Below, in pieces: positions 597-63,408 of a DNA stretch of 64,000 nucleotides (the stretch's first letter is position 1; the number at the start of each line of letters is the position of its first letter). The stretch covers positions 64,129,043 to 64,193,042 of the forward strand of contig CM077164.1 in NCBI GenBank assembly GCA_039583875.1, given 5' to 3'. Under the pieces are notes generated by a model that saw only the letters and a program-made list of their open reading frames with translations, had not been told where the DNA came from and did not search any database. The DNA is from Platanthera guangdongensis. Taxonomy: Eukaryota; Streptophyta; Magnoliopsida; Asparagales; Orchidaceae. The position numbers and the translations under genes are program-made.

Positions 597-2234
597 TGTT
601 GGGTATTGTATCCACAACGTACCTGATTTGAAGAAGCCCCTGAACAAGCTAAGGTAAATAGGCAATGTTTTTGACAAAATATTTCAAGTTGTGCTTGCAG
701 TTATTCCACGCTAAGTGCACACCAATGTCAGGGTGCAGTAGGTCAATATACACGGGACTACACGACATAATCCCTCGTTGAGCAGATCAGTGTGTTGGCC
801 TACGTGTACTTTCTCTATTGTAGTGCACTTACTTTCAAGTACATGGCTGTGTTTATGCAAGAGCAGACAAGGAGCAAGGATGAGTCAAAGAGCAACTCAG
901 AGGCGTAAGATGAAAAAACATCTAAGTAAGAATCGACGAGAATCACCAAGTGATTCTCGCCGATTCGGCGAGAATCACTAGTGATTCTCGCCGAATTGTC
1001 AAGAATCACTGGCTGATTCTCGCCGGCTAAATCAAAGTGCTATCAAGTCAAATTCGACGAGAATCACGTTGTGATTCTCGACGGATCGACGAGAATCACT
1101 TTGTGATTCTCGACGGATCGACGAGAATCACTTTGTGATTCTCGACGGATCGTCGAGAATCACTTTGTGATTCTCGCCGAATCGTCGAGAATCACCCTTG
1201 ATTCTCGACGATTCGACGAGAATCACAGGTGATTCTCGCCGATTTTTCCTTGGGCAATTTCCTGGAAACCGCTGGACCGGATTCTGCCGCTGGCACTATT
1301 TTGAACCGGATTTTGGGATTCTTCTTGTGGGACCTACAACGGTCATCTTGAAGTTGTCTACAGTATAAATACAAGGTATTTTTGAACAGTAGCAAGACAC
1401 ACACAGAAAGAAGCCGAGCCGATCTTAACCTAAAATCGCGAAACTGCTCCGCCGCCGCCGTCGCCGCTCGCGCTAGTTGGTCGCCGCTTTTGATCGAGAT
1501 TTCTTCCTGATCTTCCGGCGACAGAAGCTTAGCCAAGCTTAGAGTCTCACGCGTCTATCCAGAGATCCCTTGTCTCTCGATTTGTTGATCGGGAAAAACT
1601 TCCCCGTCCGAATCGATCGAGACGACTGATCCTAGAGTGACAGTTGGTAGACCTAGCTTGCTTCGCTACGAAGTTTGGATCTCCAGAGTACAGCAGCCGC
1701 ACATCGTAGTCGCCGCCGATCCCGTGAACATAGCCGCCGCCCATCTTGCCGCCGCCGGTTCCGGGGAGATCCTCTCCAAGAGAGATCTAGGGTTGTGGAC
1801 TCTTTGTGGACTTCAAGAACACGTCGTCAACGAAGAGGGACACCTTATTCTCCAAACGTAGTTTGTATCTTTTGTACATTCTAGTTTTACTTTTGTTGTA
1901 AAGGAACGTAGGTTCCTAGTTGTAAGTGTTGGGTGCAACCCGTGTTGTGGGAGTGTTGACTCCTACGTGTGGAAGGGTTCCTTCCGATAGTGCAAGGATT
2001 GGATTTCAATCCTGTTGGTGAAGAGACCGAGTCGTCCCGTGTTGGGAGATAGGTCGAAGGGGGAAAGTGGATGTACCCAAATCGGGGAACCACTATAAAT
2101 AGTTTGTGTATTATGTGTGCTGTGCTGTTTATTTTTATTGTGCAGGTACAATTTTAAATTCCGCATAAACGCTGCACGTCACCTATTCCCCCCCCCCCCA
2201 TAGGTGAAGATAGTTGACACTAGGTGGACTTTCA
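597..2234 (+). mobile_element. Element C0: 3' LTR (Sirevirus-like copia)
   Basis: The LTR starts TGTTGGGTATTGTATCC and ends GGTGGACTTTCA. It is clearly related to the LTRs of element D (32622-34195 and 51768-53357) through its whole length, so C0 and D are sister families. U3 holds a palindrome array (928-1240) followed by a TATA box (TATAAATA, 1364-1371). A run of 12 C sits near the 3' end between CACCTAT and ATAGGTG, which can pair as a small hairpin. Short ORFs inside it (for example 1192-1536) look like chance. The 5' LTR is outside the window, so target duplication cannot be checked; the right flank is GCAAC. Confidence 0.9.
928..1240. repeat. Palindrome array in the U3 of C0
   Basis: About nine copies of a ~30 bp inverted unit: TCGACGAGAATCAC, a 2-5 base centre, then GTGATTCTCGACGA or GTGATTCTCGCCGA. 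The copy at 963-996 is a perfect 34 bp palindrome centred on CACTAGTG. The array stops ~124 bp before the TATA box. The same unit builds the arrays in both LTRs of D. Confidence 0.9.
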
Positions 2235-2974
2235 GCAACAGGACAGCAACCAAACCGCAGGTGAGAAACCACCAGGCCTCCCGGACTGTAACCCGCCAGA
2301 GACAGACCGCCAGACCTCCCTGTCTCTAATCTACAACAGGGTCTAATGCCCAGAACAGCCGCCTTGCGGTAACATTATCACACGGGCTAACCTGTACCAC
2401 AAGAGGCCTATCATGCCGGCTATAGTCAATATCAACCAAATGACAACCCAACCAAAGTATAATATAGAAGCCAATCCATAAATAAGCATAATAAGTCCAA
2501 AAGTACATCAAGACAAGAAGCTACAACAAACTTCTAAAGTATCAGAGTCCAACAAAACATGCCCAAAGGGGCTACATCAAAACCTCTCAAAACTCGCATC
2601 GGTGACTGACGGTAACGACGACACCGTCCCTTCAGGCCCTATCGTCCTGGCCTGGCTGTCATGCTGCGTAGTCTGCGACTGCTCTACGTACGAGGTTTCC
2701 TCCTAAAAAGAAAGACGTAACAATCGTTAGTCAAAAAGACTAAGTGGTTTTCACATCCACTCCCCCGGCGACTCCTCGGCACCGGGCGGAGAAAGTAATC
2801 AAGGTACAATATATAATAAGTAATATAAGTAGGTACAAGTACGTGGATTAAGTGCACATATCGGGAGAAGTAATAGAAGGAATATATAACATGATTAATA
2901 GTAGTCTACTCTAGCAATTCTACACAAGCTATATCAATCCATCAAATATATAAATCTAAAAACAGGAAGGTAAC

Positions 2975-4768: not shown

Positions 4769-6184
4769 TGTTGGAACCCTTGTTTGGATTTGTGCTAGGT
4801 TCACTCTTACGATGTCTTGACCCCCATGTATAGCCTGGGTCCTTATCTACTCTTAGTTAGATCCTTTTAGGTCAGGATTGTGCATACCAGCATTACAGTG
4901 GACTCATACTTAGATTCAGAAAGATTTTATGGATTATCTATATCAATTCGACTATAGTCGAACCCAGCTCGACGATCCTCGATCTCCCATCGACAATCTC
5001 AGAGTCCTCTACTCTGAACTGAGCTCGACGATCTACGAGTTCAGGTCGATGATCTCGTGCTTCTCAGCAGTTATCTCAGATCTACGATAGTTATTCTTAG
5101 GTCGACGATCTCTTAACCCAGTTCGACGATCTCTGAGCCAAGCTATACGATTTTATGTTGCCTTCAGTTATCAGTTCTCTCAGATCGGTCATAAGTATTT
5201 ATTTTGGTTATGATAAATTATTTTAAGGCAAATATATTCTGATAATTAATGCTGACATTCTTAAGGTTGATAGCCATATTTCTTGAAGCATTAATTATGG
5301 TATTCACAGAATATTCTGTAAAGACTGTTATGGAAGTGCATTTATGATTGCCAAACATTCCAGCCGTTTGGGCTCCTAAATTCTTGCAGAGAATTAAGTA
5401 CTGTCTTGGGAATTCAAATTCATGCTGTTGGTCATTCCGATTAAATAAGAGAACTCAAAAAGAAAGAGACAACAAGAATCACTGAGACAGTCAGTCAGAA
5501 AACAATCTTTTTGCTCTCAAGGTCTCTTGCATTGCTAAAATAAGGAAGAAGAAGAACTTGTTCAACACACAATTCTCTCTAGTCTTCTTCTTTCTTCAGG
5601 CTTCAAAAATCTACAGAGAGATCAAATCAACATTAATCTGAAGACCTACACCCTGGACAAAGCTTCCATCTTCCTGAATCCACTCAATATCTCAGGGGGA
5701 GCTTTGACATCATCAAATCCACATAGTCTTCTCATTGTGTTTGAGAAAGAGAAGACTGTCATCTACTTTTCTTTAACCTCTCTTATACAGGGTTATTACT
5801 CCCTTCAAAAGTGAACTCCTTAGTGATAGGGCACCTGATCAAAAACCTATTGGTTTTTAGGCACCTGATCAAAAGCCTGAAGGGTTTCTAGATCTACCTG
5901 AAGCAGATCTTGTGGTGATAGGGCACCTGATCAAAAACCTAAGTAGATTACTACCAAAGTGGTAGAAGAGTGGATGTACCCAGATTTGGGGAACCACTAT
6001 AAAATTTCTTGTGTCGTCTGGTTGCCTTGTGTTTTCTTTTTGTATTGTGCTGTGATACTTTTATGTGTTTTTCCCTCTTTCATATAAGTATCAATATTTT
6101 AATTCCGCAATAAATCTAAAAAATATATTTTTTAAACTCTATTCACCCCCCTCTAGAGTAAATTCTATTTATCCCTCACTTTCA
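4769..6184 (+). repeat. Element A: 5' LTR
   Basis: A 1416 bp LTR starting TGTTGGAACCCTTG and ending CTCACTTTCA; the 3' copy is 15227-16641 (1415 bp). It contains TCGACGATC-type palindromic units at about 4965-5150 in U3. The end carries the copia-typical TTCACCCCCCTCTAG. Confidence 0.95.
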
Positions 6185-6186
6185 AT

Positions 6187-6284: not shown

Positions 6285-8383
6285 ATGACACAGTACAAGG
6301 ATTTTGCAAGCACCAGACCTCCAGTTTGCAACTTGCAAAAGTTTGGAATCTGGAAGGCAAGAATCAGGCTTTATATGAATTCTATTGATGAAGACATTTT
6401 TGGTTCTATCTTAACAGGAGTACCTTCACCACTAGCTGTCCTTCCAAGTACTTCCACAAACATGACTGCAGTACCTCCTCCAGACTACAATGATGCATAC
6501 AAGAAAGCAAAGATTGCTGATGCAAAAGCCATCAACATACTGGCACAAACAATGTCTGATGATATATTTCAGAAAGAAGCTGAATGTGAATCAGCTAAGG
6601 CCATCTGGGATTCCTTAAACCAGATGGTTACAAGATCAACAGATGAAAGGAAGGACAGGAAAGCTCATCTCATCTCCAGTATGAGAATTTTAATAAGGAA
6701 GAAACTGAGCAAGTTTCTGAGATGTACAATAGACTCAGTATCATTGTTAATGAGCTGAAAAATCTTGACAAAGACATCTCAGTCACAGAAATAAATGACA
6801 AGATTCTCATGTGCTTCCCCGGCTCATGGGACACTAGAATCTGGCCTATCAGAGAGACCAGAAACACACATGAGATGACTACAGAATCAGTCTTAGGAAA
6901 GATGAAATCCTATGAACAGCTGCTGAAGACAAGAGAAGCTGAGCAACAAAAGATTGCTACACCAACTAGGAAGGAGCAGAATATAGCCTTCAAAGCTTCA
7001 AAAGAATCAGAAACTTCTCCATCAAATGAAGAGTTGATGAGTCTCTTTGCAAAGAGATTCTTCAAGATGGGGAGAAAAGAATTCAGAAGGAAATCATCAA
7101 GGAGTGATGATAAACCAAGGTATGACAAAACCCCTTCTAAAGAGATTATCTATTTTGGTTGCAGGAAACCTGGACATATTCTTCCAGAATGTCCAGAAAA
7201 CAAGCATAAGGAAAGAAGAAAGGAGAAAGACTCCAAGAAGCACTCCAGCAAACCATCCTCCTACAAGCACAAGAAGAAGGAGAGAGGGTTTGTTGCAGAA
7301 ATATGGAGTGACACTGAAGAATCGTCTTCCTCTAGTTCTAGTGAAGATGAAGAAGAAGCAAAGGCCAAAGAAATTTTCTTAATGGCCATCAATGCTTCAG
7401 GGCATGTCTCAGAAGAAGGAGAATCTGAAGAATGTTCAGATTGTGATCAGTTATTGGAAGACTTTGACTTTACCTTTGAAGATTTTAAAAATGACTTTAA
7501 ATCTATGTGTAGTGATCTGATTAGATCTGAGAAGGAAATCAAACTTATCAGAGATAAACAATTTAATGATGATAGCTTAGTATCAGAAAACATTAAATTG
7601 AAAAATTAAATAGACATGTATAGTGAACAAATCACTTTTCTGAAAGTTAAATTAAGTAAAGCAAAACAGGTAGAGGAATCACTGAATGGAAGAAGCAAAC
7701 TGCTAGTAGAAATTACCAGCACACTTAATGCTAGACTTAATAGAAGTAAGTTAGGATTAGGTGCATCATCCAGTGAACCACCAATTATTCAGAAAAATCA
7801 CCTTTCACAACCTATAAAGTTTATTTCAAATAAGGGTAAGAAGAATACAAAACAAATTAAAACAGTTAATAATGTTTTAAAACAAGTTGAGATAAATAAA
7901 GAAAAACAAAAAGCTAAGTTTGAACAAAAATCGTCGAACCAAGATCGACGATCTCAGTATTATACGTCGAACGACGATCGACGGTCTCAGAACCTAGAGC
8001 TTGAGCCTAAACACTCTGCAAACGGGGATGGACGATATCATTATGTATCGTCAAACAGAGAGCGACGATCGTGGAACCCAGATAATAACCACTATTATTC
8101 TGAGAACCAAGATCGACGATATCAATGCTGGTCGTCGAACGCAGATCGACGATCTCAACTAAAATCATCGAACTCAAAACAATTTCATCAAAACTATAAT
8201 TTCAACAAAAATTTCAATAAGAATTCTAACTCTAAATCTTTTCATCCCTTAACTTACTGGATAATACCACCTAGGAGATTTCATCCCTTAGGTTATAAAA
8301 GTCAACCTAAATACTCTTATATTTCAAGTTTTAAGTATGAAAAGAAGCCAGGACCCAAGGTTACCTGGGTCCAAAATAGATAA
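6285..8383 (+). pseudogene. Element A: gag (capsid-nucleocapsid), broken
   Basis: Start chosen at 6285 (MTQYKDFASTRPP), which matches the gag start in element B. An N-terminal UBN2-type capsid region (WKARIRLYMNSIDEDIF ... AIWDSL) is followed by a nucleocapsid zinc knuckle near 7150, an acidic Ser-rich stretch, and a C-terminal run of DRRSQ/SSN repeats encoded by the palindromic motif (7925-8175). It ends in a short KVTWVQNR tail. Breaks: a one-base frameshift near 6680, a TAA at 7607-7609 in the continuing frame, and loss of the first Cys of the CCHC knuckle (YFGCRKPGHILPEC; B has Cys there), a TGT-to-TAT change. Gag would bind the RNA and form particles in the cytoplasm. Confidence 0.9.
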
Positions 8384-8400
8384 GTTATTTTTTCTTACAG

Positions 8401-11556: not shown

Positions 11557-11969
11557 GATTAATTTAATTTGTGTCTTCAGTTTTTGGATCTGTTCCTAAA
11601 TCGTCGAACGGAGATCGACGATCATCGAACAGCTCTTGAGCTAAATCGTCGACCTGAGTTTGACGACAGCTCTGTGTGAAGACAAAAATCGTCGATCAGA
11701 GATCGACGACTTTGCTTTAGTAAATTAATCGTCGAGCTATGCTCGACTATCAATTTTCGACTGAGATCAGAGACCAAGGATATTATTTGTTCATAAATTA
11801 ATCTTTGACCTAAGATCGACGTTTGGTTTGATTTTGTCGTCGGACAGAGATCGTCTTTTCATATTCCAAAAACTTATATGTAGGTTTCTCTTCGATCTCT
11901 GTCCCGCGCTTTCATATTCTATTTTCCCTTTGCCCTTGATCTCTTCTCTCTTGAGTCTATAGATCTTCC
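11557..11969 (+). promoter_or_regulatory. Element A: pol-ORF3 spacer with palindrome array and TATA-like box
   Basis: This spacer holds repeated ATCGTCGA / TCGACGAT units (about 11598-11870), the same motif as in the LTR U3 and in gag. It is followed by TTATATG (11873-11879) and ~90 bp of pyrimidine-rich, UTR-like sequence before the ORF3 ATG at 11970. Element B has the same order. An internal promoter for ORF3 is my inference. Confidence 0.55.
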
Positions 11970-15226: not shown

Positions 15227-16641
15227 TGTTGGAACCCTTGTTTGGATTTGTGCTAGGTTCACTCTTAGGATGTCTTGACCCCCATGTATATCCTGGGTCC
15301 TTGTCTAGTCTTAGTTAGATCCTTTTAGGTCAGGATTGTGCAGACCAGCATTGCAGTGGACTCAGACTTAGATTCAGAAAGATTTTATGGATTATCTATA
15401 TCAGTTCGACTATAGTCGAACCCAGCTCGACGATCATCGATCTCCCATCGACGATCTCAGAGTCCTCTACTCTGAACTGAGCTCGGCGATCTACGAGCTC
15501 AGGTCGACGATCTCATGCTTCTCAGCAGTTATCTCAAATCTACGATAGTTGTTCTCAAGTCGACGATCTCTTAACCCTGTTCAACGATCTCTGAGTCAAG
15601 CTCTACGATTTTATGTTGCCTTCAGTTATCAGTTCTCTCAGATCGGTCAGAAGTATTTATTTTTGTTATGATAAATTATTTTAAGGAAAATATATTCTGA
15701 TAATTAATACTGACATTCTCAAGGCTGATAGCCGTATTTCTTGAAACATTAATTATGGTATTCACAGAATATTCTGTAAAGACTGTTATTGAAGTGCATT
15801 TATGATTGCCAGCCATTCTAGCCGTTTGGGCTCCTAAATTCTTGCAGAGAATTAAATACTGTCTTGGGAATTCAAATTCATGTCGTTGGTCATTCCGATT
15901 AAATGAGAGAACTCAAAAAGAAAGAGACAACAAGAATCACTGAGACAGTCAGTCAAAAAATAATCTTTTTGCTCTTAAGGTCTCTTGCATTGCCAAAATA
16001 AGGAAGAAGAAGAACTTGTTCAACACACAATTCTCTCTAGTCTTCTTCTTTCTTCAGACTTCAAAAATCTACAGAGAGCTCAAATCAAGATCAATCTGAA
16101 GACCTACACCCTGGACAAAGCTTCCATCTTCCTGAATCTACTCAATATCTCAGGGGGAGTTTTGGCATCATCAAATCCACATAGTCTTCTCATTGTGTTT
16201 GAGAAAGAGAAGACTGTCATCTAGTTTTCTTTAACCTCTCTTGTACAGGGTTATTACTCCCTTCAAAAGTGAACTCTTTGGTGATAGGGCACCTAATCAA
16301 AAACCTATTAGTTTTAGGCACCTGATCAAAAGCCTGAAGGGTTTCTAGATCTACCAGAAGCAGATCTTGTGGTGATAGGGCACCTGATCAAAAACCTAAG
16401 TGGATTCCTACCAGGGTGGTAGAAGAGTGGATGTACCCAGATTTGGGGAACCATTATAAAATTTCTTGTGTCGTCTGGTTGCCTTGTGTTTTCTTTTTGT
16501 ATTGTGCAGTGATAATTTTATATGCTTTTCCCTCTTTCATATAAGTATCAATATTTTAATTCCACAATAAATCTAAACAATATTTTTTTAATACTTTATT
16601 CACCCCCCTCTAGAGTAAATTCTATCTATCCCTCACTTTCA
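15227..16641 (+). repeat. Element A: 3' LTR
   Basis: Same boundaries as the 5' copy (TGTTGGAACCC ... CACTTTCA), 1415 bp. The palindromic units lie at about 15408-15610. An ORF at 15985-16224 inside it is not considered a gene. Confidence 0.95.
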
Positions 16642-16874: not shown

Positions 16875-17375
16875 TACGGGTAGGGACACGCCCGTGTCCT
16901 TACCCGTGTCCTGCTCGAGCTAAGCGTCGTCGACGGTTCGACTGCTGTTTCGATACACAAACACAGGTAGGGACACGCCCGTGTCTCTACCCATGTACAA
17001 GTGACACGCCCGTGTTTCTTTCCCATGTTCTGCTCAGGGAACACTTCGTAGGGTTCCACTTGACGCACACGGGTAGGGACACGCCCGTGTCTCTACCCGT
17101 GTCCTGCTCGAGACACACTTCGTCAAGCTCTGTTTGACACACACGGGTAGGGACACGCACGTGTATCTACCTGTGTCCTCCTCGGGACACATTTCATCGA
17201 GCCCTACTCGACACACACGGGTAGGGACACGCCGTGTCTCTACCGTGTCCTCATACACACGGGTAGTGATACGCCCGTGTCACTACCCGTGTCCTTCGCT
17301 GGAATAACTCGAGTCGTCGAGTCGAGTACTGGGTGGACACACACGGGTAGAGACACGCCCGTGTCTCTACTCGTG
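16875..17375. repeat. Palindrome array in the U3 of G1 (3' LTR)
   Basis: About seven units of ACACGGGTAGGGACACG paired with CGTGTCTCTACCCGTGT around a CC centre, separated by short CTGCTCGAGACACACTTCGTC-like links (given here only in outline). For example, both arms are intact at 17259-17291. The array lies close to the LTR start (17505, minus) and upstream, in the minus sense, of a TATA-like box at 16858-16865. The other LTR carries it at 25035-25540. Confidence 0.88.
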
Positions 17376-17663
17376 TCCTTCTCTGTCCTAACTTCACCTC
17401 CCCTACACAAGTGTAAGCCTAGCTTCCAGTACTTCCCTGAGCCCAAATCAGATCTTCTGACTCAAAAGCGCGCACAAGGGGCCTAGCGCGAATCGGGACG
17501 TTACAAATCCTATAAATAAAATAAAAGATTTCATCCCCGAAATCAGGTTAAGGCTATGGGGAGAGAAAAGTATAAAATAAAATAACATAAAATATGTTTT
17601 TAAAAAATACCTTGAGCGAACAACTCCGGGTAGCGCTTTTCATCAAATCCACGGCTCCCGTGT

Positions 17664-25300: not shown

Positions 25301-25666
25301 CTCAACACACACGGTTGGGACATGCACGTATCGCTCCTCGTGCCCTCATCGGGACACATTTCGTCGAGACCTACTCGACACACACGGGTAGGGACATACC
25401 GTGTCTCTACCGCGTCCTCATACACACGGGTAGTGACACGCCCGTGTCACTACCCGTGTCCTTCTCTGGAATAACTCGAGTCATTGACTCGAGCACTGTG
25501 TGGACACACACGGGTAGAGACACGCCCGTGTCTCTACTCGTGTCCTTCTCTGGCCTAACTTCACCTCCCCTACACAAGTATAAGCCTAGCTGCCAGTACT
25601 TCCCTGAGCCCAAATCAGCTCTTCTGACTCAAAAGCGCGCACGAGGGGCCAAGCGCGAATCAGGAC
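22373..25666 (-). repeat. Element G1: 5' LTR, truncated at its outer end
   Basis: This matches the 3' LTR parts (2287-4768 and 16642-17505). It starts TGTAAGAC on plus beside the primer site and loses similarity after GAATCAGGAC at 25666, so the last ~6 bases and the target duplication are missing. The palindrome array is at 25035-25540. It gives the uninterrupted form of the LTR that element A split. Confidence 0.88.
25035..25540. repeat. Palindrome array in the U3 of G1 (5' LTR)
   Basis: The same ACACGGGTAG...CTACCCGTGT units as at 16875-17375, with more substitutions in the middle copies. The best-kept units are at about 25045-25080, 25424-25462 and 25503-25542. Confidence 0.88.
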
Positions 25667-29004: not shown

Positions 29005-29540
29005 TGACATGGCCTGTGACACGCCCGTGTCACAGGCCGTGTACCCCAAGCGGTGCTCAACCGACTTATACTGACCAGTACACGCCCATGTGACATGCCC
29101 GTGTCACGGGCCGTGTCACCTGACACGCCTTTAGACACGTCCGTATCTGTGGCCATGTACTTCAGGCTGCACAAAATTAAAATCAACCCAATCAGGATAC
29201 GGCCAGTGACACGCCCGTGTCACATGCCATGTACCCCAAGACACACCCGTATCATGTCCGTGTTCACCAGGCCTCAAATGTCTGGGCACATCCCGCAAAG
29301 GACACGACCTGTGATACGTCCGCGTCCCAGGCCGTGTGCCCACATACGGCAGCTGACACGCCCCAGCTCTACTTCGTCGAGCTGACTTCGTCAACTAGAG
29401 GAGGACACGGCCTCTGACACGCCCGTATCAGAGGGCGTGTGCCCTCATTCTTTCGCAGAACGGAAATTCATCGAACACTCGCCGACTGCTCACCCGAGCA
29501 AGACATGCCCTAGGACACGCCCGTGTCCTAGGCCGTGTCA
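29005..29540. repeat. Palindrome array in the U3 of solo LTR H
   Basis: Repeated GACACGCCCGTGTC cores, each followed by AGGCCGTGT or GGGCCGTGT (about 29010-29045, 29090-29125, 29205-29235, 29400-29440 and 29510-29540). The core ACACG/CGTGT is self-complementary around CC. Confidence 0.88.
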
Positions 29541-31445: not shown

Positions 31446-31586
31446 TGCCCCATATGCCTCAGCAGCCCAAAGGATGCGGCCTGCCTTCTCCCAGTCCACC
31501 CAGCCATGCAGCTTGCTCGCTGAGTCCGCACAAGTCTCCATGATGACGTTGTTGGACCCCGCTTCTAGAAGATCCTTCCCTGGGCA

Positions 31587-42213: not shown

Positions 42214-42725
42214 GGGTACCTGAAAAAATTCAACAAACAAAACGACCAAGTGCAGAACTGTTTGGAGGGAAAGAAAGTTCTTGCAGAGAAATCGAAAGCG
42301 CAAAGGAGAACGACGGCGAAAAATGAATTTTATATTAGGGTTCGACGCAGAATTGGAAAGATCGTTGAACTCAGTTCGACGATCGAGGCTTCTAAAGGAA
42401 TCTGAAGAGTCTTCAACATCGTCGATCTCCGTTCGACGATATTGGAGAGCGTCGAGCTCTATTCGACGATCGTTCAAAGCACAAAATCGTCGAGCGTCGT
42501 TCGGCAATCGTTGACCGGAAGAGATAGTTCATACTATCTGAGAAGCGCTGAACTCAGGTCGACGATTTCAGATATCGTCGATCTCCGTTCGATGATCTGG
42601 GGGAAAATCGTCGAGCGCAGTTCAGAGACCAGAAAAATTCTAGAAACTAAGAAAAATCAAGATGTTTGCCTAGTCTTGGTCAATTTTTAAGCTTTCAAAA
42701 TCTTGGAGATTATTTAAGACTTGCT
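42214..42725 (-). promoter_or_regulatory. Element B: pol-ORF3 spacer with palindrome array and TATA box
   Basis: On minus, the end of pol is followed by TCGTCGA / TCGACGAT units (42355-42620). Then come TATAAAATT (42326-42334) and ~110 bp of UTR-like sequence up to the ORF3 ATG at 42213. The order array, TATA, leader, ATG repeats that of A (11557-11969). Internal promoter activity is inferred. Confidence 0.55.
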
Positions 42726-45876: not shown

Positions 45877-47919
45877 TCATTTGTTTTTGACCCAGTTTAC
45901 CTTGGGCCTAAGTTGATAGCCTTTAAATTCTGAAATAAAAGACATCCCAGGTTGGCTCTTATATCCTTCAAGATGATATCTCCTTGGAGGTATAATCCAT
46001 TCAGTATAAGGGTTAAAGATTTGGGATGAAGGACCCTTAGGATTGAATTTTGATTTGCCTTTGAAAACATTTCCAGAGCTCTGACCTCTGTTCGATGATC
46101 TTGGAGCTGCGTTCGACGATCTTGGGTCAGATCGTCGAGCTCCGTTCGACGGTCGACTATGGCTGAGTTCAGGACCTTGAGATCGTCGACCTGAGTTCGA
46201 CGATTTTGGCTGAGATCGTCGATCTGCGTTCGGCGATCGTCGATCTCCGTTTGGCGATCGTCGATCTTCGTTCGACGATTTCTGCTGGGACTTGGATTTC
46301 TTGGGCAGATCAGAATTTTTCCTAGCAACCTCTACAACTCCCTTTCCTTTGTCAGAAATGAATTTGATTGGAGTTGTTAGAACTATGGGTTGGCTGGATG
46401 AAGCACCCAAGCCCAGTGTACTGTTAAATCTGGAGTTTACTGTGCTTGTGATGTCCATCAGCTTGATGCTTCTCCCATTAAGGGATTCTTCAAGCTTCTT
46501 GGCCTCAGACAGCTCACTTTTCAGTGAAGCTATCTTCTCCCTACAACATTCCAACTCCTGAGAGAGTTTGAGGTTTTCTGATTTTAAAGTATTATATTCA
46601 GATAATTGATTTCTGAGAGAGATAATTTCTTTCTCAGATTTTAGCAGGTCTAAACATAAAGCTTTAAATTCAGATTTAAAGTCTTCTGAATTGAAATCAA
46701 AAGAACTGATTACCTGATCTTCTTCAGGTTGAGTCTCTGAATCTGACTCTGACTCCTCTTCTTCTGAATTGTGCTGTGAGGCATTGATTGCCATCATGCA
46801 GAAGTCTTTCTCTTCTGCATCATCCTCATCATCACTGGAGCTGGATGAGGCTTCTGACTCTTCTTCAGTCTCACTCCAGGATTCAGCAACAAACCCCTTT
46901 CTTGTATGTTTGTTTTTGCTTGATGAGGGTTTGCCATTGCCATTCCTTTTGGAGTCTTTCTCCTTTCTTCTTTCTTTCCTGTCCCTTCTGTCCTTGTTTT
47001 TGTTCTCTGGACAGTCAGGAACTATGTGCCCTGGTTTTCTGCAACCAAAGCAAACAATTTCTTCATTATTATTAATGGACATGTCATACCTTGGCTTATC
47101 ATGCTCCATGTATGATCTTCTTCTGAAGTCCTTTCTGGCCATCTTGTAAAATCTTTTGGCCAACAGACTGAGCAGTTCATCATTGTCTGTGGCTTTGTCT
47201 TCAGGCAGATCTTCAGTTGCCTTGAAGGCTATGGTCTTCTCTTTTCTTGTGGCTGGTGAGGCAGCCTTCTGTTCTTCCTCTCTATTTTTGATGAGTAGCT
47301 CATAAGATTTGAGCTTACCCAATAGAGCTTCAGTAGTGATCTCATTCAGACTTCTGGCATCCTTAATTGGCCAGATTCTTGAATCCTAAGTGCTGGGGAA
47401 GCACATTAGAATTTTGTCATTGAGTTCAGTTAGTGAGATCTCCTTATCCAATGTCCTGAGTTCACTGACAATTAGACTGAGCCTGTTGTACATATCTCCC
47501 ACTGACTCAGTTTCTCCCTTCTTGAAATTCTCATATTGAGATATGAGGTGGGATCTCCTATCCTTTCTCTCATCAGCTGAGCCTGAGACTATTTCAGAGA
47601 GTTTATCCCAAATTTCCTTTGCTGAATTGCATTCAGCCACCTTTTGAAATATGTCATCAGACATTGTCTGGGCTAAGATGTTCATAGCATTGGTATCAGC
47701 TAACTTCCATCTCTTGATGTCAGCATCTGTTCCTGATGGAGGTGGAACATCATTTGAACTGGAGTTCTCTGGAGGTCTTGGACATACTATCAAAACAGAG
47801 TTAAAAATATCTTCGTCAATAGAATTCATATACAGTCTGATCCTTGCTTTCCAAAGTGCAAACTTGGATAGATTGCACACTAGAGGTCTGGTGCTAGCAT
47901 AATCTTTGTTTTGGGCCAT
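45877..47919 (-). pseudogene. Element B: gag, one stop
   Basis: Start at 47919 (MAQNKDYASTRPL). The UBN2-type capsid part (LWKARIRLYMNSIDEDIF, KEIWDKL, NRLSLIVSELRTLDKEI) is followed by a TAG at 47386-47388 where A has TGG. The intact zinc knuckle CFGCRKPGHIVPDC is at ~47015-47060. Acidic Ser-rich segments, a coiled-coil-like stretch (~46450-46650) and the repeat region 46080-46290, read as DRRSPNGDRRSPNADRRSQ, complete it. The last block is KVNWVKNK. It differs from A mainly in having the frame otherwise undamaged. Confidence 0.92.
46080..46290. repeat. Palindromic TCGACGAT units inside gag of B
   Basis: About eleven TCGTCGA/TCGACGA-type units in the coding sequence encode SSN-x-DRRS repeats. 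The counterpart in A is 7925-8175. These are the same units as in the LTRs of these elements. Confidence 0.88.
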
Positions 47920-48051: not shown

Positions 48052-49583
48052 TGAAAGTGCAGCTAGATCTGATATACTCTAGAGGGGGTGAATAGAGTAT
48101 ATGGTGATTTAGCAGTTTTTACAACAATTGTTGTAATATGAGTGAGCAGGGAAGCAATAATAAATCTAATCACAGAACTAAACTAATCAAAAGCTAATCA
48201 CAGAATAATCAAGGCCAGAAACAAAAATAAAGACAAGCAAAACCAGAAGACACAAGGAAATATAGTGGTTCCCCTAAACTTGGGTACATCCACTCTTCTA
48301 CCACCCTAGGTAGGAATCCACTGCAGGATGAGTTGATCAGGTGTCCTGGGCACCAATGAGCTTTTGATAAGGTGCTCAAAAACCAAAGCAGATTTTTTGG
48401 TCAGGTGTCTTGCCATCAATGAGCTTTTGACAAGGTGCTCAAAAACCAAACTCAAACTTTTGAAGGGAGTTTGAGAAACCCTTTACAGAGATGGGGTGAG
48501 AGATTAATGGAAGTCTTCACTTTCTCAGATCAGCTGAGAAGACTATGTGGATTGATGGTGTCAAAGCTCCCCCTGAGTCCTTGAGATCTTCAGGAAGAGA
48601 AGCTTTGTTGTAGGGTGATAGGCCTTCAAAAGTTGAGCTCCAGCAAAATATGATTTCAGCAACAGCTGAAATGTTGAATGTCTGGAGTCTTGAAATATGT
48701 TGGCCTTGAACACTTGAAAACTAGAGAGATCTGAAGATTTCAGAAAAAGTTGATCTCCTTGGATGAGTGTTCTTGAGAATTATTTGAGACAGTATATTTT
48801 ATTCTTGTTCTGAAGAATACTGATGTCTGTCTATGTATCTCTGTAATCTGTGTGTCTCACAGAGATTCAAAAATTCTTGTCTTTTATTCTCTGGTACTGA
48901 ATGGAAAGACATTCTCTGAGAAGAATAGCTGTTGGTCTGCATTAATGGCATCCTTAATTGCAAAATCTCTTCTGGAGGAAAGTCCATAGAAATATTCCTT
49001 GAAAATCCCTTGAAACTTGGTCCAGAAATGAATGAAAACGGCTAGGAAATCTTCAGAATTAATTACAGAATAACTCCTTAACTGATTTGAATTTGAATCT
49101 AGAAACATCCTTGAAGTTATCTGAAAATGTCGAACTGAGCTCTGCTATCGTCGGACTGAGCTCAGCGATATGGACTTATACAGCAGCAAAATATCGTCGA
49201 TCTGAGCTCAAAGATCGTTGAACTGAGCTCAGAGATAGAAATCCAAAGCTGAGTCAAGATCATCGACCTGAGCTCACCGATCATCGAATGGAGTTCGACG
49301 ATATGATGAAGTTGAGCTCAGCGATCGTCGAATGGAGTTCGACGATCTGTCGAAGTTGAGCTAGACGATCGTCGATCGGAGTTCGACGAATCGTCGTGCT
49401 GAGCTCGACGATATGACTTGGTCCCCAAATAGAAAATCCTGGTCTTGAGGGCAGCTTCCAAACCTAGACTTCTAACCCTTAGACTCAATTCTAATTGACC
49501 TTTTGATCTATACAGGAGGTCAAACATTTGTTTCCTAGAGACATAGTGATCCTGACCCAAATTAGTAATAGGGTGTTCCAACA
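48052..49583 (-). repeat. Element B: 5' LTR and adjoining primer site
   Basis: 1532 bp, nearly identical to the 3' copy. The primer site (minus TGGTATCAAAGCC) lies at about 48037-48049, directly beside the LTR. The palindrome array is at 49125-49420. Confidence 0.95.
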
Positions 49584-51767: not shown

Positions 51768-53357
51768 TGTTGGGTAATGTATCCACAATTACCTGGATTT
51801 GAGGAAGCCACCTGTCAAGCTAAGATGAATACACAATGTATTTTATAAAATCCTTCAAGTTGTGCTTGCAGTTATTCCATGCTAAGTACACATCAATGTC
51901 AGGGTGCAGTAGGTCAATATACACGGGTCTGCGCGACGTAATCCCTCGTTGAGCAGATCAATGTGTTGGCCTACGTGTACTCTCTCTATTGGAGTGTACT
52001 TATTTTCAAGTACAGGGCTGTGACAAAGCAAGAGCAGACAAGGAGCAAGGATGGGTCCAAGAGCAGCTCATGGGTGGAAAGATGAAAAATCGTCTAAGTA
52101 ACAATCGACGAGAATCACTAAGTGATTCTCGCCGATTCGGCGAGAATCACTAGTGATTCTCGCCGAATCGTCGAGAATCACTGGCTGATTCTCGCCGTCT
52201 CTATCCGGCTACATCAAAGCGTGCAAATCTGGCGCCAAGTCATAATCGTCGAGAATCATCAAGTGATTCGGCGAGAATCACTAGTGATTCTCGCCGAATC
52301 GTCGAGAATCACTGGCTGATTCTCGCGGACTCGTCGAGAATCACCTTCGATTCTCGCCGATTTTGACTTGGGCGATTTTCTGGATCCCGCTGGACCGGAT
52401 CAAATGTTAAGGTGTTGTTTTGAACCGGTATTAGGGTTTCTTCTGCTGGGACCCACAACGGTCATAAAGAGGTATACTACTGTATAAATACTCGCGTATT
52501 TTTGAACAGTACAGTGAGCAATTTGAAAAACAAAAGCCGAGCCGCCGACGTGACCTAGATCGCGAAATCCGCTCCGCCGCCGTCGCCGCTCATGCCAGTA
52601 GATCGCCGGCTTTGATCGTGGTTGCTTCCAGATCTCCCGGTGATAGAAGCTCAAGCAAGCACAACGTCTCACGCATCTAACCAGAGATCCCTTGTCTCTT
52701 GATTCGTTGATCGGGAAAACCTTCCCCTTCCGAATCGATCGAGACGATTGATACTAGTGTGACCGTTGGAAGACCTTACTAGCTTTGCTACGAAGATTGA
52801 ATATCCAAAGTACAGCAGCCGCACACCGTTGTCGCCGCCGATCCTGAGAACCAAGCCGCCGTCCTTCTTACCGCCGCCGGTTTCGGGGAGATTTTCTCCA
52901 AGAGAGATCTAGGGTTGTGGACTCTTCGTTGACTTCAAGAACACGTCAACGAACGAAGAGGGACACCTTAGTCTCCAAAAGTTGTTTGTATTTCTTGTAC
53001 ATTCTATTTTCATTTTTGTTGTAAAGGAATGTTGGTTCCTAGTTGTAAGGGTTGGGTGCAACCCGTGTTGTGGGAGTGTTGTCTCCTACGTGTGGAAGGG
53101 TTCCTTCCGTTAGTGCAAGGATTGGATTTCAATCCTGTTGGTGAAGTGACCGAGTCGTCCCTGGTTGGGAGATAGGTCGAAGGGGGAAAGTGGATGTACC
53201 CAAATCGGGGAACCACTATAATTTGCTTGTGTCCTTTCTGTGCTGTGCTGTTTTGTTTTCTTGTGCAGGTACAATTTTAATTCCGCAAAAACGTTGCACG
53301 TCACCTATTCCCCCCCCCCCCCATAGGTGAAGGTAGTTGACACTAGGTGGACTTTCA
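51768..53357 (+). repeat. Element D: 3' LTR with polypurine tract before it
   Basis: 1590 bp, TGTTGGGTAATG to GGACTTTCA, preceded by AAATAGGGGGAGAT (51754-51767). Palindrome array at 52103-52350 with a perfect 38 bp palindrome at 52133-52170. TATA box at 52483-52490. 13 C between CACCTAT and ATAGGTG near the end. Confidence 0.95.
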
Positions 53358-58052: not shown

Positions 58053-58858
58053 TGTTAACCCAGAAATCGGCGAACCTTCCCAAGGCAGCCAGCTGGCTAG
58101 TCACGACCTTCAGATTCTCCTTGAAGTTCGCGATAAGTCCAAGTGTAGGTAGACAGATTTCTCTGCCCTCCCAGGTCGCATAGCAACCGCGTGCCCTGCG
58201 GGACTGCGGGCTGTTCCCATAACTCGCCCTCGCAGGCCGCGCTGTTAGGACTGCTAACTGCGCATCATTTTTTCCTCGCAGGAAGCGATCTAAAGCAGCA
58301 GGAGGTGATCTGCGCGATCTATGTCTTCAGTCCGCCAGGTTGCCCAGTCGGCGTCAACCATAGACCGACTCAACCGTCGCGGGCTCGGCGGACTCACCCT
58401 CCGGCTCGCCAGAAGAGATTCCATCTCCCATATAGGGAGGGCCTCCTGGCCCAGGCCACCCACCAGGGGCGGCCTCCCTGCTCCAGGCCGCCTACCAGGG
58501 GCGGCCTCCTTGTCAGGTCGCCCACCCGGGGCGGTCTCCCTACTCCAGGCCGCCCACCAGGGGCGGCCTCCTGGTCCAGGCTGCCCACCAGGGGCAACCT
58601 CCTTGCCCAGGCCGCCCATCAGGGCGGCCTCCTTGCCCAGGCCGCCCATCAGGGCGGCCTCCTTACCAGGCCGCCCACCAGGGGCGGCCTCCTGCTCTTC
58701 AGGCCGCTCCATATGCCTCAGCAGCCTAAAGGGCGCGACCTGCCTTCTCCCAGTCTGCCCAGCTAGGCAGCTTGCTCGCTGAGTCCACATAAGTCTCCAT
58801 GATGACGTCGCTGGGCCCTGCTTCTAGAAGATCCTTCCTGAGGCCTATAAATAGCCCC
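58053..58858 (+). repeat. Element E: 3' LTR, cut by F
   Basis: It starts TGTTAACCCAGAAATCGG, preceded by a purine-rich AAAAAGTGCGGGGATTA. The palindrome array is at 58450-58700 and TATAAATA at 58846-58853. F begins at 58859, right after GCCCC, its presumed target duplication. The rest lies beyond the window. Confidence 0.88.
58450..58700. repeat. Palindrome array in the U3 of E (3' LTR)
   Basis: Eight GGCCGCC / GGCGGCC units as in the 5' LTR. Two neighbouring units (58610-58665) have the shortened centre CATCA and are near-exact copies of each other. Confidence 0.88.
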
Positions 58859-59650: not shown

Positions 59651-62181
59651 TGTAACACCTCCCCTGTAGTGGACGTATAATATGGGTCCGGCTGGGGCCC
59701 CACAACATACGAACGCCACAGCTTTAGTATTATAAGTTGATATAGCTACCCAAACTCAAAACACTTGCACAACACAGCGGAAAACCAAGCACAACCAGAA
59801 GTTATCCACTAACCAAAAGAGTACAACTAAGGCCTTAAGGCCTACCACAAATGTCCAAAAGTAAATAGTACAATCAAACATGAATGTGCTCAGCAGTCCT
59901 AGTCTACCTCGGCATGCAAGCCGGACAAAATAGTCTCAAACAACATCATCATAACTGTAGTGCTACAAAAGAGGGAAAAACACTTCATGGGGCTTAGGCC
60001 TTCTTGGCCGGCGTGCTAGCTCCTGCGTGCGATCCTTGCCCTGTAAAAATTATTAGTAACGTGGGTCAGCAAAGGCTGACCTCAAACTGTGTAACAACAC
60101 ATCTCCTCCCGGCCGCCCCTAACGGACCCCGGGGAACCCTCCAACCTGCAAGTCAGCACTTCATATGCAAATAAACATCTATAATTAGAAAAGCGTTAAA
60201 ACAGGCTTGGATGTCTCAATCATCAAACATGTTCTCTATTGGTTGAGCATATAAAGAAAAGGGCCTACTATGCAACATGAATGCAACACCCGGGATTCAC
60301 CCAAGGTACCCTACAACGTATGCATCTAGCACAACATCACATCATTTGGGTACTCACATTTCCCCAATTGGCATAAAGCCGCAAACATTGAGGGAGACAC
60401 AACTCCCTCACACGGCGCACAAGCCGCCACATGGAATTCTTGCCAAGGCCCCACCCGCTCGTGGGCTTGGCCCCGAGCTTGCCTGCAAGCTCTGACGTCT
60501 CATGTCAGGATTCCAACAACCACAGACTGACCGATTCTAAGAAGCCTTGCTGGACCCCACCCGCTCATGGCCTCTTTGCCCGGGCTTGCCCCAAGCTTGG
60601 CATTCTCGTCAGTCTCACAGAAGGGGACTAGTCTCGCCGGGACACTCTCCACACATGACGCACATGTCACGGGATAGCCAGCCGACCACGGAGATATAGC
60701 CACGCCTTGGCACAACACAAACCAAGACTAAATACATCGCAATCCCTCTTTGTACCGCAGCGTTCCCGCGCACCAAGGAAAACATCTCCAACTCGTGCGG
60801 AGCTAACCTTGTCCACCAAGGAAACCATCTCCATTCTCATACGGATCTAACCTTGTCCCTCAAGGAAACCATCTACCGCCACGAGGAGCTAACCTTGTCC
60901 GGGTTCGACTACACGTACCTTTTCAAGCAAACGGGACAATCACCACCACAACACAAACGACATCTTGCCGCAACGGAAATCTCTACGAATCCCTAAGTTC
61001 GTATGCAACATCACCGGGCCGGACTAACGGTCGCGACCACGGCTTCACCCACCATGCCTAATCCACTAGCGAAGCGGATCTCTAATGCAAAATATGCCGG
61101 GGACGGACTCAATCAACCCGGAAGTTCCTCTTGAAACTTGGCAAACCAAAACCCCTCTCATTTGAGAGTTCGGTGCCCAGAAATTAGGGAGAAAGAAAAC
61201 TAAATGATGCTAATACATGCATCCTAAGGACCGAGAGGAGAGATGTCGTTACCTTCCGACTCCTCTTCCTTGCCATGGCAAAAATGGTCGGTTGGAAATC
61301 TTCGCAGCGGTCTAAGCTTCACGGATCCGGACTCGGTTCGCGATTTGGAGCTCCGAAACCCTTCCTACAGCCCAAACCTTCTTCTTCTTCCTCCTTGCTC
61401 TAGCTTTTCTCAAGATCTTAGAAAGAGAAAACTTGGAAAACTATGAGGGTTTCCAACCCTGAATTCGGTCTTAACTCCCCAGGAGATGGCCTGAACTGTT
61501 AGATCCTAAAACCAGAAAAAGAATGGCCGCGATTCGCCTGGAAAATAGAAGACCTGGGCCGAACACGGCCTGGCACACGCCCGTGTCCAGGGCCGTGTGC
61601 CTCATTCGCCGTCTCAAATCGACGCGCCTGGAATCAGACACGGGAATTCGACACGCCCGTGTTCAATCCGACACGCCCGTGTCCCCAGTGACACGGCCAT
61701 GTGGCCTGCCGTGTGTCTCCAACGACACGGCCCCAACACCAACCCGAGAGGTGACACGGCCTGGGACACGCCCGTGTCCCAAGCCGTGTGCCAAGTCTCG
61801 ACACCAGTCGACAGGCTTTGTGTCGACACCGCGGAAAAAACGTCGAGCGAAGATCGTCGACCAAGCGGGACACGCCCTGTGACACGCCCGTGTCACAGGC
61901 CGTGTGCCCAAGTCTCGACACATTGTCGAGCGAGAGTGTCGAAACTTGGGCCGAGTGTCGACACGGCCTCGACACGCCCTGCGACACGCCCGTGTCGCAG
62001 GCCGTGTGCCCCCCTCTCGACACTTTGTCGAGCGAAAGTGTCGACACTTTGGTCGAGTGTCGACACGGCCTCGACACGCCCTGCGACACGCCCGTGTCGC
62101 AGGCCGTGTGCCTCCTGCCAGAAACCCAAAAAATTTCCAGAACTGCAGACTGAACCTCTTGCCAAAATCTGGGGTGTTACA
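59651..62181 (-). mobile_element. Solo LTR S2, inserted in the F palindrome array
   Basis: 2531 bp gypsy-type LTR, on plus TGTAACACCTCCC to GGGGTGTTACA, i.e. minus-strand orientation. Exact duplication ACTCG (59646-59650 and 62182-62186), so it landed inside one ACTCGAGT unit. It shares its start form and general layout with solo LTR H but is a different family. Contains three ~44 bp repeats (60773-60900, CCAAGGAAACCATCT ... CTAACCTTGTCC) and its own palindrome array (61560-62115). Long overlapping frames at 61597-62367 translate that array and are not genes. Confidence 0.92.
61560..62115. repeat. Palindrome array in the U3 of S2
   Basis: Units GACACGCCCGTGTC followed by AGGCCGTGTGCC, mixed with TGTCGA/TCGACA units. 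A ~105 bp higher-order repeat (about 61880-61995 and 61970-62115) contains both types. Confidence 0.88.
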
Positions 62182-63408
62182 ACTCGAGTATTTCATCAAA
62201 TCACTCGAGTAGTTTTTCTCACCTACTCGAGTAGTACAACTTGTACTCGAGTAGTTCAACTCCACTTCCCGTGAAATTTTCTTTATACTCGAGTAGATCT
62301 TTCTAGTACTCGAGTAGTTGATTATATGCACTCGAGTAGTTGTCTTCAAACCTACTCGAGTAATCATGAATTATATTCCCGAGTATTTTCCTTCACTTAC
62401 TCGAGTAGTCCTTTACCTACTCGAGTAGTTATATTCCCACTCGTGTATATCTCTTCCTTTTCTTCGAAATTTCTTCTAAGTCCAGATTTGACAGATTTTC
62501 AAATTCCGCGACATGATTGGTCCACGTGTACGTCATTAAAACCAATTATGACTGTTATTAGTGTTCTTATATAAAGGCCTGTCTAATCGACAAACCCTAA
62601 TAATAAGACGAATACAAGCTTTCAAGATTATTATTGGAAAAAGTTCTGCAGCCGTATCTCTCTCTAAGTCGTTGTTTCCTCTCTCTCTCTCTTCATGGAA
62701 CGAAAGCCGCCGCCGCCGCTATTCTTCTCTGGCAAGGGCTTCGATTTTCAGAGGAAATAGACTGAAGAAGTTTTACAGATCGAGATCATTTCTCAACTGC
62801 TCATCCTTTTTCCTGATCGTGTAAGACATGGAAGATTCCAGATCTGTTGCCGAGATTTTCTTCATCTTTTCTGAAAGTGCCGCAAAGCTTACAAGAAGAA
62901 GATCCTGGTTGTTGTTTGCAGATCTGACAGAAAAAACATTGTTTGTATTTTCGTAAACAATTTTTCATTCTTGTAGGAGAAGTTTTCTCCGAGTGTAGGA
63001 GTTTTCAACTCCGAGTTTGTAGGAAGTTTTTCCTTCTGAGTTGTAGATCCAGTTGGTTGGATTGAGTTTGTAGGAACTTTGTTCCGAGGGTAGGATTGAT
63101 TTTCAATCCGAGATAGTGGAGTAGGCGAGTATAGTATATTGCTAGATCGGTGAGGGAAAGTGGATGTACCCAAAATCGGGGAACCACTATAAATCTTGTC
63201 TCGTCTGTGATAATTTGGTAGATAGATCTGTGCTGTGTTCTGAGATTTTTTATTCCGCAAAACAAGCACAACTCACATATTCACCCCCATCTAGGTATTT
63301 TAGGTTGACAATTATTATCTTTCAATTGGTATCAGAGGGAGGTTGATCGTTAAAAAGTTAACACCTTGATCAGTTCCTGCAATAGTTGTCATTTGAGATC
63401 TACCTATC

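Follow-up and report, generated by a model that had tools for sequence, protein, structure and literature searches.

LTR retrotransposons nested in one stretch of the genome of Platanthera guangdongensis carry arrays of palindromic units in U3 that stand well above chance expectation. We analysed one window of 64,000 nt (GCA_039583875.1, CM077164.1, 64,129,043 to 64,193,042). On balance, the arrays are probably clusters of sites for dimeric, two-fold-symmetric proteins and act as enhancers of the LTR promoters; the best candidates for these proteins are transcription factors of the host. The basic phenomenon is already known, so this is no new system. What looks new is that one such dyad, shared by the elements A and H, also lies within the gag frame, and that the CpGs of these elements are concentrated in islands.

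The arrays fall into five motif classes: A/H, C0/D, E/F, B/S0/S1/S2 and G. The first-pass annotation had counted eight LTR types with unrelated unit sequences. The units do differ between the five classes, but A and H have the motif TCGTCGA-N7-TCGACGA in common, CACGGGCGTG/CACGCCCGTG is common to B, S0, S1 and S2, and E and F together form a single Sirevirus-type LTR (58859-59650 and 62187-63325, PBS at 63327). This LTR is interrupted by the solo LTR S2 (59651-62181; TSD ACTCG), whose insertion point lies within one ACTCGAGT site of E/F. Palindrome-targeted insertion was rejected as the cause of the arrays; the preference described in the excerpted text of PMC6911290 is slight. The E/F array runs from 59186 to 59650 (plus strand; TACTCGAGTA dyads at a spacing of about 21 bp) and, past S2, from 62182 to 62446 (plus), with TATATAAA at 62568. 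The C0 dyad array (930..1242, plus; units TCGACGAGAATCAC..GTGATTCTCG) is located in the U3 of a Sirevirus-type 3' LTR (~597-2234), and the U3 dyad arrays of D at 32957..33204 (plus; 5' LTR 32622-34194) and 52103..52360 (plus; 3' LTR ~51768-53357). In A, the U3 arrays occupy 4951..5151 (plus; 5' LTR 4769-6184; half-sites TCGTCGA/TCGACGA) and 15409..15609 (plus; 3' LTR 15227-16641); in H, 49117..49412 (minus; 5' LTR 48052-49583) and 38459..38755 (minus; 3' LTR 37393-38925). The gypsy-type B carries arrays in its 3' LTR (16885..17380, minus; ACACGGGTAGGGACACGCCCGTGTC.. units) and its 5' LTR (25041..25545, minus). The solo LTR S1 (27104-29575, flanks CAACC/TAACC) has an array at 29018..29540 (minus), the older LTR S0, which is split by S1, at 29582..29806 (plus), and S2 at 61560..62110 (minus; GACACGCCCGTGTC units with a 102-bp period). 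The U3 arrays of G, built on GGCCGCC-N7-GGCGGCC, lie at 31170..31450 (plus; 5' LTR from 30789; TATAAATA at 31587) and 58434..58707 (plus; 3' LTR 58053-58858).

D and E/F were assigned to Sirevirus through their PBS, PPT or LTR ends; no pol ORF was seen among the D ORFs of at least 200 aa, and the E/F sequence in the window extends only into gag. In Sireviruses the polypurine tract AGGGGGAG is repeated, its last copy lying about 10 bp from the 3' LTR; this junction copy is present in A, H and D, internal copies number four in D, two in A and one in H, and A and H have one more per LTR. The PBS junction reads CTTTCAATTGGTATCA in A, H and E/F and CTTTCAAGTGGTATCAAAGC in D. The polyC-rich integrase signal CACCCCCC is present in one LTR of H and in the two of A, and D has C-runs. 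The A gag matches PF14223, and PF07727 (RVT_2 reverse transcriptase) was matched in both A and H. A search of viral contigs for relatives found none.

Inverted-repeat coverage in the U3 or first parts of the LTRs was 0.216, compared with 0.041 in shuffled sequence (5.3-fold). All 16 such stretches of this window exceeded their shuffles, which confirms that the arrays are real; in 14 of them, 0 of 100 shuffles was as high as observed, and in A5 and H5, 2 of 100 were. The four gag and pre-env arrays, pooled, reached 4.7 times the shuffled coverage. We also scanned 250-bp windows against 30 dinucleotide shuffles each, flagging those that lay above all shuffles with z of at least 4. Of 256 such windows, 25 were flagged: 20 in U3/first-part arrays, two in the A gag array (7751-8250) and three in downstream LTR parts (starting at 2501, 33751 and 53001). 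At this threshold, no window was flagged in the A U3 arrays, the G 5' LTR array, the H gag array or either pre-env array. A smaller excess of inverted repeats was also present in several of the LTR remainders and of the internal stretches: coverage was 2.4-fold in the LTR remainder and 1.7-fold in internal DNA, and the remainders of D5 (z 6.1), B5 (6.0), H5 (5.1) and H3 (4.3) were above shuffles.

The distance from the end of the array to the TATA box is 121 bp in C0, 122 bp in D5 and D3, 121 bp in E/F, 136 bp in G5 and 138 bp in G3. A near-constant TATA distance, proposed earlier as frequent, describes C0, D, E/F and G (121-138 bp). In A, H, B, S1 and S2, a pattern search found no TATA box just downstream of the array; looser patterns in A gave TATTTA and TATATT. 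Similarly, the placement in U3 stood, but A and H have arrays in gag and before env as well, and the GC-richness attributed to the units applies to B, S0, S1, S2 and G (56-75% GC) but not to C0/D, A/H and E/F (36-50%). TCGA was rejected as a core common to every family: its excess over shuffles is highest in E/F, B, S2 and S0, modest in A/H and nil in C0, D and S1, and the G array contains no TCGA. Place and symmetry are alike in all five classes and the sequences differ, but the convergent selection for symmetry that had been suggested was overstated, because four families are Sirevirus-type and may share arrays of this sort by common inheritance.

That selection acts on the dyad is supported by E/F, where dyads are conserved while spacers have diverged, and by A/H, where a 7-nt spacer is preferred. 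E/F contains 28 matches to ACTCGAGT at no more than one mismatch, among them, at 59646, the left half of the site severed by S2. The dyad columns hold 1.4-2.0 bits, the base directly after the dyad 1.6 and the other columns 0.1-0.8, a comparison that favours the dyad columns since the matches were picked by motif. The spacing is about 21 bp, or two helical turns: of 26 spacings, 20 fall between 19 and 24 bp, against an average of 4.3 under the null (p=0.0002), and no spacing is shorter than 19 bp. A phase test did not single out 10.5 bp; periods of 8-13 score as well. Leftover similarity between the spacers suggests that the E/F arrays originated by tandem duplication.

In A and H, one dyad recurs at three kinds of site: in U3, in frame within gag and before env. 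The gag arrays lie at 7931..8152 (plus) in A, where they code for DRRS-type repeats with mostly CGN arginine codons, and at 46113..46278 (minus) in H, with the same dyad as the H U3. The pre-env arrays are found at 11601..11750 (plus) in A and 42376..42614 (minus) in H, upstream of env-like ORFs with their ATG at 11970 and 42213, respectively. Across the gag, U3 and pre-env clusters, all half-sites are TCGWCGA (19/19 in A, 32/32 in H). The 14-bp offset corresponding to the 7-nt spacer occurs 28 times over eight regions, two to four times in each (at most one mismatch per half-site), and is the most frequent offset in six of the eight; the two exceptions, the U3 of A5 and of A3, favour an offset of 21. 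At up to three mismatches, 45 units yield a near-perfect 23-bp dyad, ATCGTCGAAC..G.TCGACGAT, a consensus that is biased to the motif and counts both LTR copies of each element; at the same threshold, H has 7-8 copies per U3 and 7 before env, and A 3-4 per U3 and 5 before env. In the ORFs examined, 22 of 26 arginine codons within the gag arrays are CGN, compared with 0 of 121 outside. As stand-alone proof of dyad selection this codon bias is weakened, since CpG is avoided element-wide in A and H. The gag copies offer a clean test of whether the palindromes serve DNA-binding proteins or RNA structure, because any function must override codon use there.

The interior of gag is an unusual location for an enhancer. 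A simple promoter for pol was rejected as the role of the gag array, because in neither A nor H does pol have an in-frame ATG in the stretch from the gag stop to the protease motif. D has an env-like ORF, yet no copies of its array before it. The env-like ORF of A matched PF20167 in Pfam only weakly (23.1 bits against a cut-off of 45), and the predicted model of the N-terminus of its H counterpart was unusable (pLDDT 37). Foamy viruses have an internal promoter in addition to the LTR. A and H resemble them in that regulatory logic is shared between the LTR and a region before a downstream gene; no relationship is claimed.

CpGs in A and H are largely confined to the arrays, which hold 126 of 140 CpGs within 1,410 of 12,191 bp in H and 77 of 117 within 1,030 of 11,873 bp in A. 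CpG o/e is 1.40-1.88 in these arrays and 0.00-0.19 in the remainder. This concentration, like the gag and pre-env copies, had escaped the first-pass annotation. Array values exceed the LTR remainder in 9 of 10 LTR families, including C0 (1.97 vs 1.06) and, barely, S0 (1.06 vs 1.01); G is reversed (0.32 vs 0.45). Decay after insertion was rejected as the source of the CpG desert, because divergence within LTR pairs is low, about 2% in H and 5% in A, and the bodies of D, B and G in the same window have a CpG o/e of 0.50-0.71. The excess of TpG+CpA in A/H, mostly 1.1-1.36, fits some deamination. As the sole cause, deamination is doubtful, since the change from CGN to AGR is a transversion and CWG is undepleted (o/e 0.95-2.34 in non-array segments). 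CpG to TG/CA changes after insertion, array versus outside, amount to 4/19 vs 3/8 in A, 4/32 vs 2/4 in H, 0/28 vs 11/73 in D and 14/55 vs 5/14 in B; G alone shows greater loss inside the array (7/16 vs 10/42). Comparison of LTR pairs gave no consistent sign that changes after insertion concentrate in the arrays or spare them: array and rest do not differ in A and H, and the array has fewer substitutions in D (p=0.01), more substitutions in B (p=0.06) and more indels in G (p=0.01). Better preservation between LTR pairs is thus not seen for the A, H, G and B arrays; D alone has fewer substitutions. The strong concentration of CpG in the A/H arrays points to methylation either as a force that shaped these two elements or as one that they evaded. 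Tentatively, A and H may be CpG-purged elements in which the 23-bp CpG dyad is an element-wide code read by a dimeric, possibly methylation-sensitive factor. The purged body would then give the CG-methylation machinery or an RNA CpG sensor almost no target, and the gag island would be regulatory DNA that costs codon choice.

Several other explanations were weighed. An RNA-level role, in which transcript hairpins in the 3' UTR, gag and env leader serve packaging, stability or translation, or feed Dicer siRNAs, is unlikely, even though most arrays fold better than shuffles on both strands. Of the 15 arrays folded (20 are listed), 14 had a z no higher than -2.1 for sense and antisense alike, with the A5 U3 (-2.4 sense, -1.6 antisense) near the five controls (-1.7 to +1.1), and the palindrome region of maize Sireviruses is a small-RNA hotspot according to Bousios 2016, as cited in the excerpted texts of PMC10760457 and PMC5311732. 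In imperfect dyads, however, mismatches that could still pair as G.U are not in excess on the sense strand: among 127 mismatches there are 15 G.T and 36 A.C, which departs in the opposite direction (p=0.005; 15 of these 51 come from B). Moreover, the antisense strand folds about equally well, and a single E/F site, having zero spacer, should fold poorly as a hairpin while forming a good dyad as duplex DNA. We attach a similarly low probability to the arrays being CG-methylation devices, that is, CpG-rich palindromes acting as a methylation-sensitive switch or as a target of host silencing. The high CpG content of most arrays agrees with this, and CpG loss in the A and H arrays above the LTR divergence would be expected if dead copies are methylated. 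On the other hand, CpG richness requires neither dyad symmetry nor set spacing nor spacer divergence, the G array is CpG-poor, and arrays are not favoured for CpG loss in A, H, D and B, with G the only exception.

It is less likely still that the arrays are a by-product of tandem duplication, with slippage tolerated in U3 and palindromic units spreading neutrally. Many arrays are tandem, D and G carry indel differences within them, and a 20-bp tandem array of G outside U3 (32044-32622) contains inverted repeats with arms of at least 7 and contributes to the z of 3.1 for that LTR remainder. Neutral spread does not account for E/F spacers diverging while the dyads stay conserved, or for the recurrence of one A/H dyad in U3, gag and pre-env with uniform half-sites, and neither the 20-bp nor the 172-bp tandem array of G contained a 250-bp window flagged at z of at least 4. 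VANC proteins counter the silencing of VANDAL transposons. A comparable element-encoded protein that recognises the dyads, counters silencing and leaves the motif to evolve per family would suit the family-specific motifs with shared symmetry and the dispersal of the A/H motif over three parts; pre-env motifs are also tied to the presence of env in Bousios 2010 (PMC2829016, excerpt). We consider this very improbable: no DNA-binding candidate was found in the env-like ORFs, given the weak PF20167 match in A and the low-confidence model in H, and B carries arrays although only gag- and pol-type ORFs were seen among its ORFs of at least 200 aa.

Binding sites for dimeric factors, an option already named in the first-pass annotation, therefore remain our preferred reading. 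From the enrichment over shuffles, the position in U3, the conserved E/F dyads and the spacing, recurrence and CpG retention in A/H, we infer protein binding, a host origin of the factors, transcriptional activation and a reason for the CpG retention. The factors would most likely be host transcription factors that differ per family. The arrays would enhance LTR promoter activity and, in the env-bearing A and H, act through the pre-env region as well. The CpGs would be retained as part of the recognised site and/or be shielded from methylation in source copies. Against this reading, the excerpted text of Bousios 2010 reports that no single binding factor in common was found (PMC2829016).

Contrary to the earlier remark that no named system was known, such arrays were published in 2010 as the RM boxes of Sireviruses. 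The text available from PMC2829016 describes these as palindromic and element-specific motifs that precede the TATA box, form CpG islands and have extra copies in front of env; a regulatory role was suggested there. RMs number 8 or more per element and lie in the upper LTR half, and 12 of 13 had a CGG-CCG core, which Tnd-1 lacks in that excerpt. The C0/D, A, H and E/F arrays resemble RM boxes in being palindromic and in the upper LTR half. C0/D and E/F share the position upstream of the TATA box, which was not found for A or H, and A/H share the CpG islands and the copies before env, which the env-like ORF of D lacks. In contrast, the A, H, C0/D and E/F arrays have no CGG-CCG core (TCG..CGA in A/H, CTCGAG in E/F, TCGACGAGAATCAC in C0/D), and arrays here also occur in gypsy-type families. 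Copies within gag, as in A/H, are not mentioned in the part of PMC2829016 covered by 12 of 22 listed matches.

More generally, cis-regulatory regions of transposable elements are often arrays of repeats, sometimes palindromic (PMC10760457, excerpt). The BII boxes of Tnt1 are likewise in U3 and are said to bind defence-induced factors (PMC3316501, excerpt). ERV9/LTR12 has U3 tandem units (5-17) with transcription-factor sites, but is an animal element whose units are not described as palindromic in the excerpted text of PMC11853044. ONSEN is, like A and H, a copia element without CG where methylation would matter; its promoter lacks CG and CHG sites (PMC3907296, excerpt), whereas A and H are CG-poor mostly in the body and retain CG in the promoter arrays. 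The findings sharpen the question whether LTR palindromes serve DNA-binding proteins or RNA structure. Maize Sirevirus palindromes (Bousios 2016, as cited in the excerpts of PMC10760457 and PMC5311732) similarly combine an LTR cis-regulatory region with hairpin potential. Maize Ty3 elements generally lack an obvious structure peak according to the excerpt of PMC10760457, whereas B, S1, S2 and G have arrays here.

The palindrome arrays in the LTRs of the window are real and mostly of a kind described before, with a striking variant in two copia elements, A and H. The 64 kb (44% GC) consist of plant LTR retrotransposons nested in one another, mapped by self-comparison, LTR ends and primer sites, and direct reading of the sequence. 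A (4769-16641, plus strand, TSD AAGGG) sits in the 3' LTR of B, a minus-strand element that is gypsy-type by its domains. H (37393-49583, minus strand, TSD CGATT) sits in D (32622-53357, plus strand, TSD CAAGC), which has Sirevirus-type LTRs and lies in turn within G, whose LTRs start at 30789 and 58053 and whose gag domain is the sole ground for calling it gypsy-type. The D family also includes C0, a 3' LTR. E/F, a copia-type LTR, starts at 58859 within the 3' LTR of G and is cut at position 59650, the insert being the solo LTR S2 (59651-62181); another solo LTR, S1 (27104-29575), is inserted in the LTR S0. The window holds no coding part of S0, S1 or S2, and their TGTAAC ends and common motif suggest that they are gypsy-type. 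S2 entered a ACTCGAGT dyad of the E/F LTR (59646-59650 / 62182-62186) with a 5-bp target duplication, ACTCG; our calculations placed the E end at 59655 and the S2 start at 59656, 5 bases off, which we judged immaterial. The best named protein relatives are from Platanthera zijinensis (gag, 47% identity; env-like N-terminus, 71-72%), which makes an orchid the probable host. An ORF search over 32622-53357 found no pol ORF of at least 200 aa in D, which retains gag-like ORFs and, at 49556-51469, a long env-like ORF without a Pfam match, so that D is possibly a non-autonomous element that kept its env.

Inverted repeats were scored as perfect arms of at least 6 bp with a spacer of at most 12. When 256 windows of 250 bp were compared with 30 dinucleotide shuffles, 25 lay above all 30 with z>=4; the arrays of the A U3, the G 5' LTR, the H gag and the pre-env regions were not among these flagged windows. 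With 100 shuffles per region, the arrays claimed by the first-pass annotation were borne out, as 16 U3 or first-part stretches had an inverted-repeat coverage of 0.216 against 0.041 in shuffles (5.3x). Here U3 extends to the TATA box if present and otherwise covers the first 700 bp, is only approximate for A, H, B, S1 and S2, and is represented by pieces in S0 and F. Coverage was 2.4x shuffled in 14 LTR remainders, with D5, B5, H5 and H3 (5' and 3' LTRs of the named elements) strongly above shuffles (z 4.3-6.1), and 1.7x in 13 internal stretches; the excess is thus concentrated in U3, not exclusive to it. Taken together, the four gag and pre-env arrays of A and H reached 4.7x, their observed values being attained by 0, 5, 1 and 0 of 100 shuffles. 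Secondary peaks lie further downstream in the LTRs of D and B (33751-34000, 53001-53250 and 2501-2750).

Eight LTR types with differing units had been proposed; we count five motif classes, which do differ from one another. These are TCGTCGA-N7-TCGACGA in A and H, TCGACGAGAATCAC..GTGATTCTCG in C0 and D, TACTCGAGTA in E/F, CACGGGCGTG surrounded by longer dyads in B, S0, S1 and S2, and GGCCGCC-N7-GGCGGCC in G. Comparable palindromes, CACGG..CCGTG, are known from the LTRs of other plants. The proposed fixed distance to the TATA box holds in C0, D and E/F, where 121-122 bp separate the array end from TATA, and in G, with 136-138 bp.

The suggestion that no named system exists does not stand. Bousios et al. 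2010 (PMC2829016) report palindromic repeated motifs (RMs) in 13 Sireviruses, their LTR copies mostly in the upper half, upstream of TATA and forming CpG islands, with further copies before env, for which regulation and an internal env promoter were suggested; RMs were reported absent from classic copia elements. Palindromes are also cited as Sirevirus cis-regions in PMC10760457, according to which TE cis-regions are often arrays of repeats, sometimes palindromic. The copia U3 arrays are therefore of a known kind. RMs lie before env as in A and H, which further have copies in gag, and gypsy-type families here carry arrays, whereas no obvious structure peak was found in maize Ty3 elements (PMC10760457). 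In the portions of the open-licence literature covered, we found no earlier description of gypsy-type arrays, gag-internal copies or a CpG desert; the gag-embedded dyads and the concentration of CpG in arrays, in A and H of this one window, look new.

The A/H dyad is confined to U3, gag and the stretch before env, these clusters holding 19/19 TCGWCGA half-sites in A and 32/32 in H. Every half-site also falls within CpG-rich segments, a confinement that is partly circular since the half-site comprises two CpGs. Within gag the site, ~240 nt ahead of the stop codon, is translated in frame as SSNxDRRS. CGN makes up 22/26 Arg codons of both gag arrays together and 0/121 of those outside in the ORFs examined; for Ser, TCG accounts for 18/33 codons inside and 2/221 outside. 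Similar SN..RR repeats occur at the same place in the Platanthera gag P0002 and the ENA proteins P0001 and P0003, and P0008 includes a translated pre-env stretch resembling that of H; from these proteins we infer that the underlying DNA would hold the dyad. D lacks its dyad both in gag and before its env-like ORF.

This difference in codons belongs to a broader CpG scarcity of A and H outside the arrays. In H, 126/140 CpGs lie in four arrays (1,410 bp), leaving 14 in the other 10,781 bp where ~440 are expected; in A, 77/117 lie in arrays (1,030 bp), leaving 40 in 10,843 bp against ~386 (expected totals summed over segment rows). Fourteen of these 40 lie at 11838-12037, around the env start, and the A CpG island reaches across the env ATG (11970). 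In the bodies of A and H no other dinucleotide is nearly as extreme as CpG (0.05 and 0.01, respectively), TpA coming next (0.70 and 0.65); CpG o/e is 0.50-0.71 in the bodies of D, B and G, and 0.17 in the 675 bp of E/F gag within reach. Depletion hits all codon positions (1-2, 2-3 and 3-1), with observed/expected counts of 0/20, 3/30.5 and 3/39.9 in A and 0/32.4, 0/41.8 and 2/62.7 in H. Because the LTR pairs differ by just about 5% (A) and 2% (H), the desert is older than the insertions. Post-insertion change of CpG to TG/CA affected 8/51 array sites and 5/12 sites outside in A and H together, both rates above that of the average site, so the dead copies were probably methylated throughout. 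If so, array CpGs must be kept in source copies by selection or protection, which would argue for function. The array was spared in D (0/28 vs 11/73 outside), not clearly in B (14/55 vs 5/14) and not in G (7/16 vs 10/42).

Whether the arrays act as DNA sites or as RNA hairpins can be weighed from their structure. The 8-bp E/F dyad has 28 matches, one cut by S2; its columns carry 1.4-2.0 bits and others 0.1-0.8, except the next base at 1.6, in matches picked by the motif itself. Spacings are 19-24 bp in 20/26 cases and below 19 bp in none, where sites placed at random give 4.3 and 10.0 on average (p=0.0002 for both). The spacing fits two helical turns; periods of 8-13 score as well in a phase test, and 10.5 bp is not singled out. 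Half-sites of A and H are preferentially offset by 14 bp, in U3 as well as in gag and pre-env (28 pairs across 8 regions), the two A U3 arrays being looser, with 2 such pairs each and a 21-bp offset commoner. The arrays are able to form hairpins, which may be a source of small RNAs: 14 of 15 arrays folded as RNA at z -2.1 or lower on both strands, with no clear strand preference, while the A5 U3 array folded near control level. The 127 mismatches of imperfect dyads did not show the G.T excess expected if a sense-strand RNA stem were selected (G.T 15, A.C 36; 13 and 23 without the 2 and 13 of B). Hairpins are thus possible, and nothing in the analysis shows their selection in sense RNA.

Other repeats accompany the arrays. 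The D interior has a 34-bp tandem repeat (TTCCGTCGATATCCCGC..) with a CGTCGA core at 36569-36674. Downstream of its TATA box, G carries a 20-bp CTTCTCTGCTCAG tandem array (32044-32622 and 53358-53436) that contains some inverted repeats and into which D inserted. The 3' internal part of G (56743-57600) holds a 172-bp tandem repeat in five copies, built of diverged 85-bp halves.
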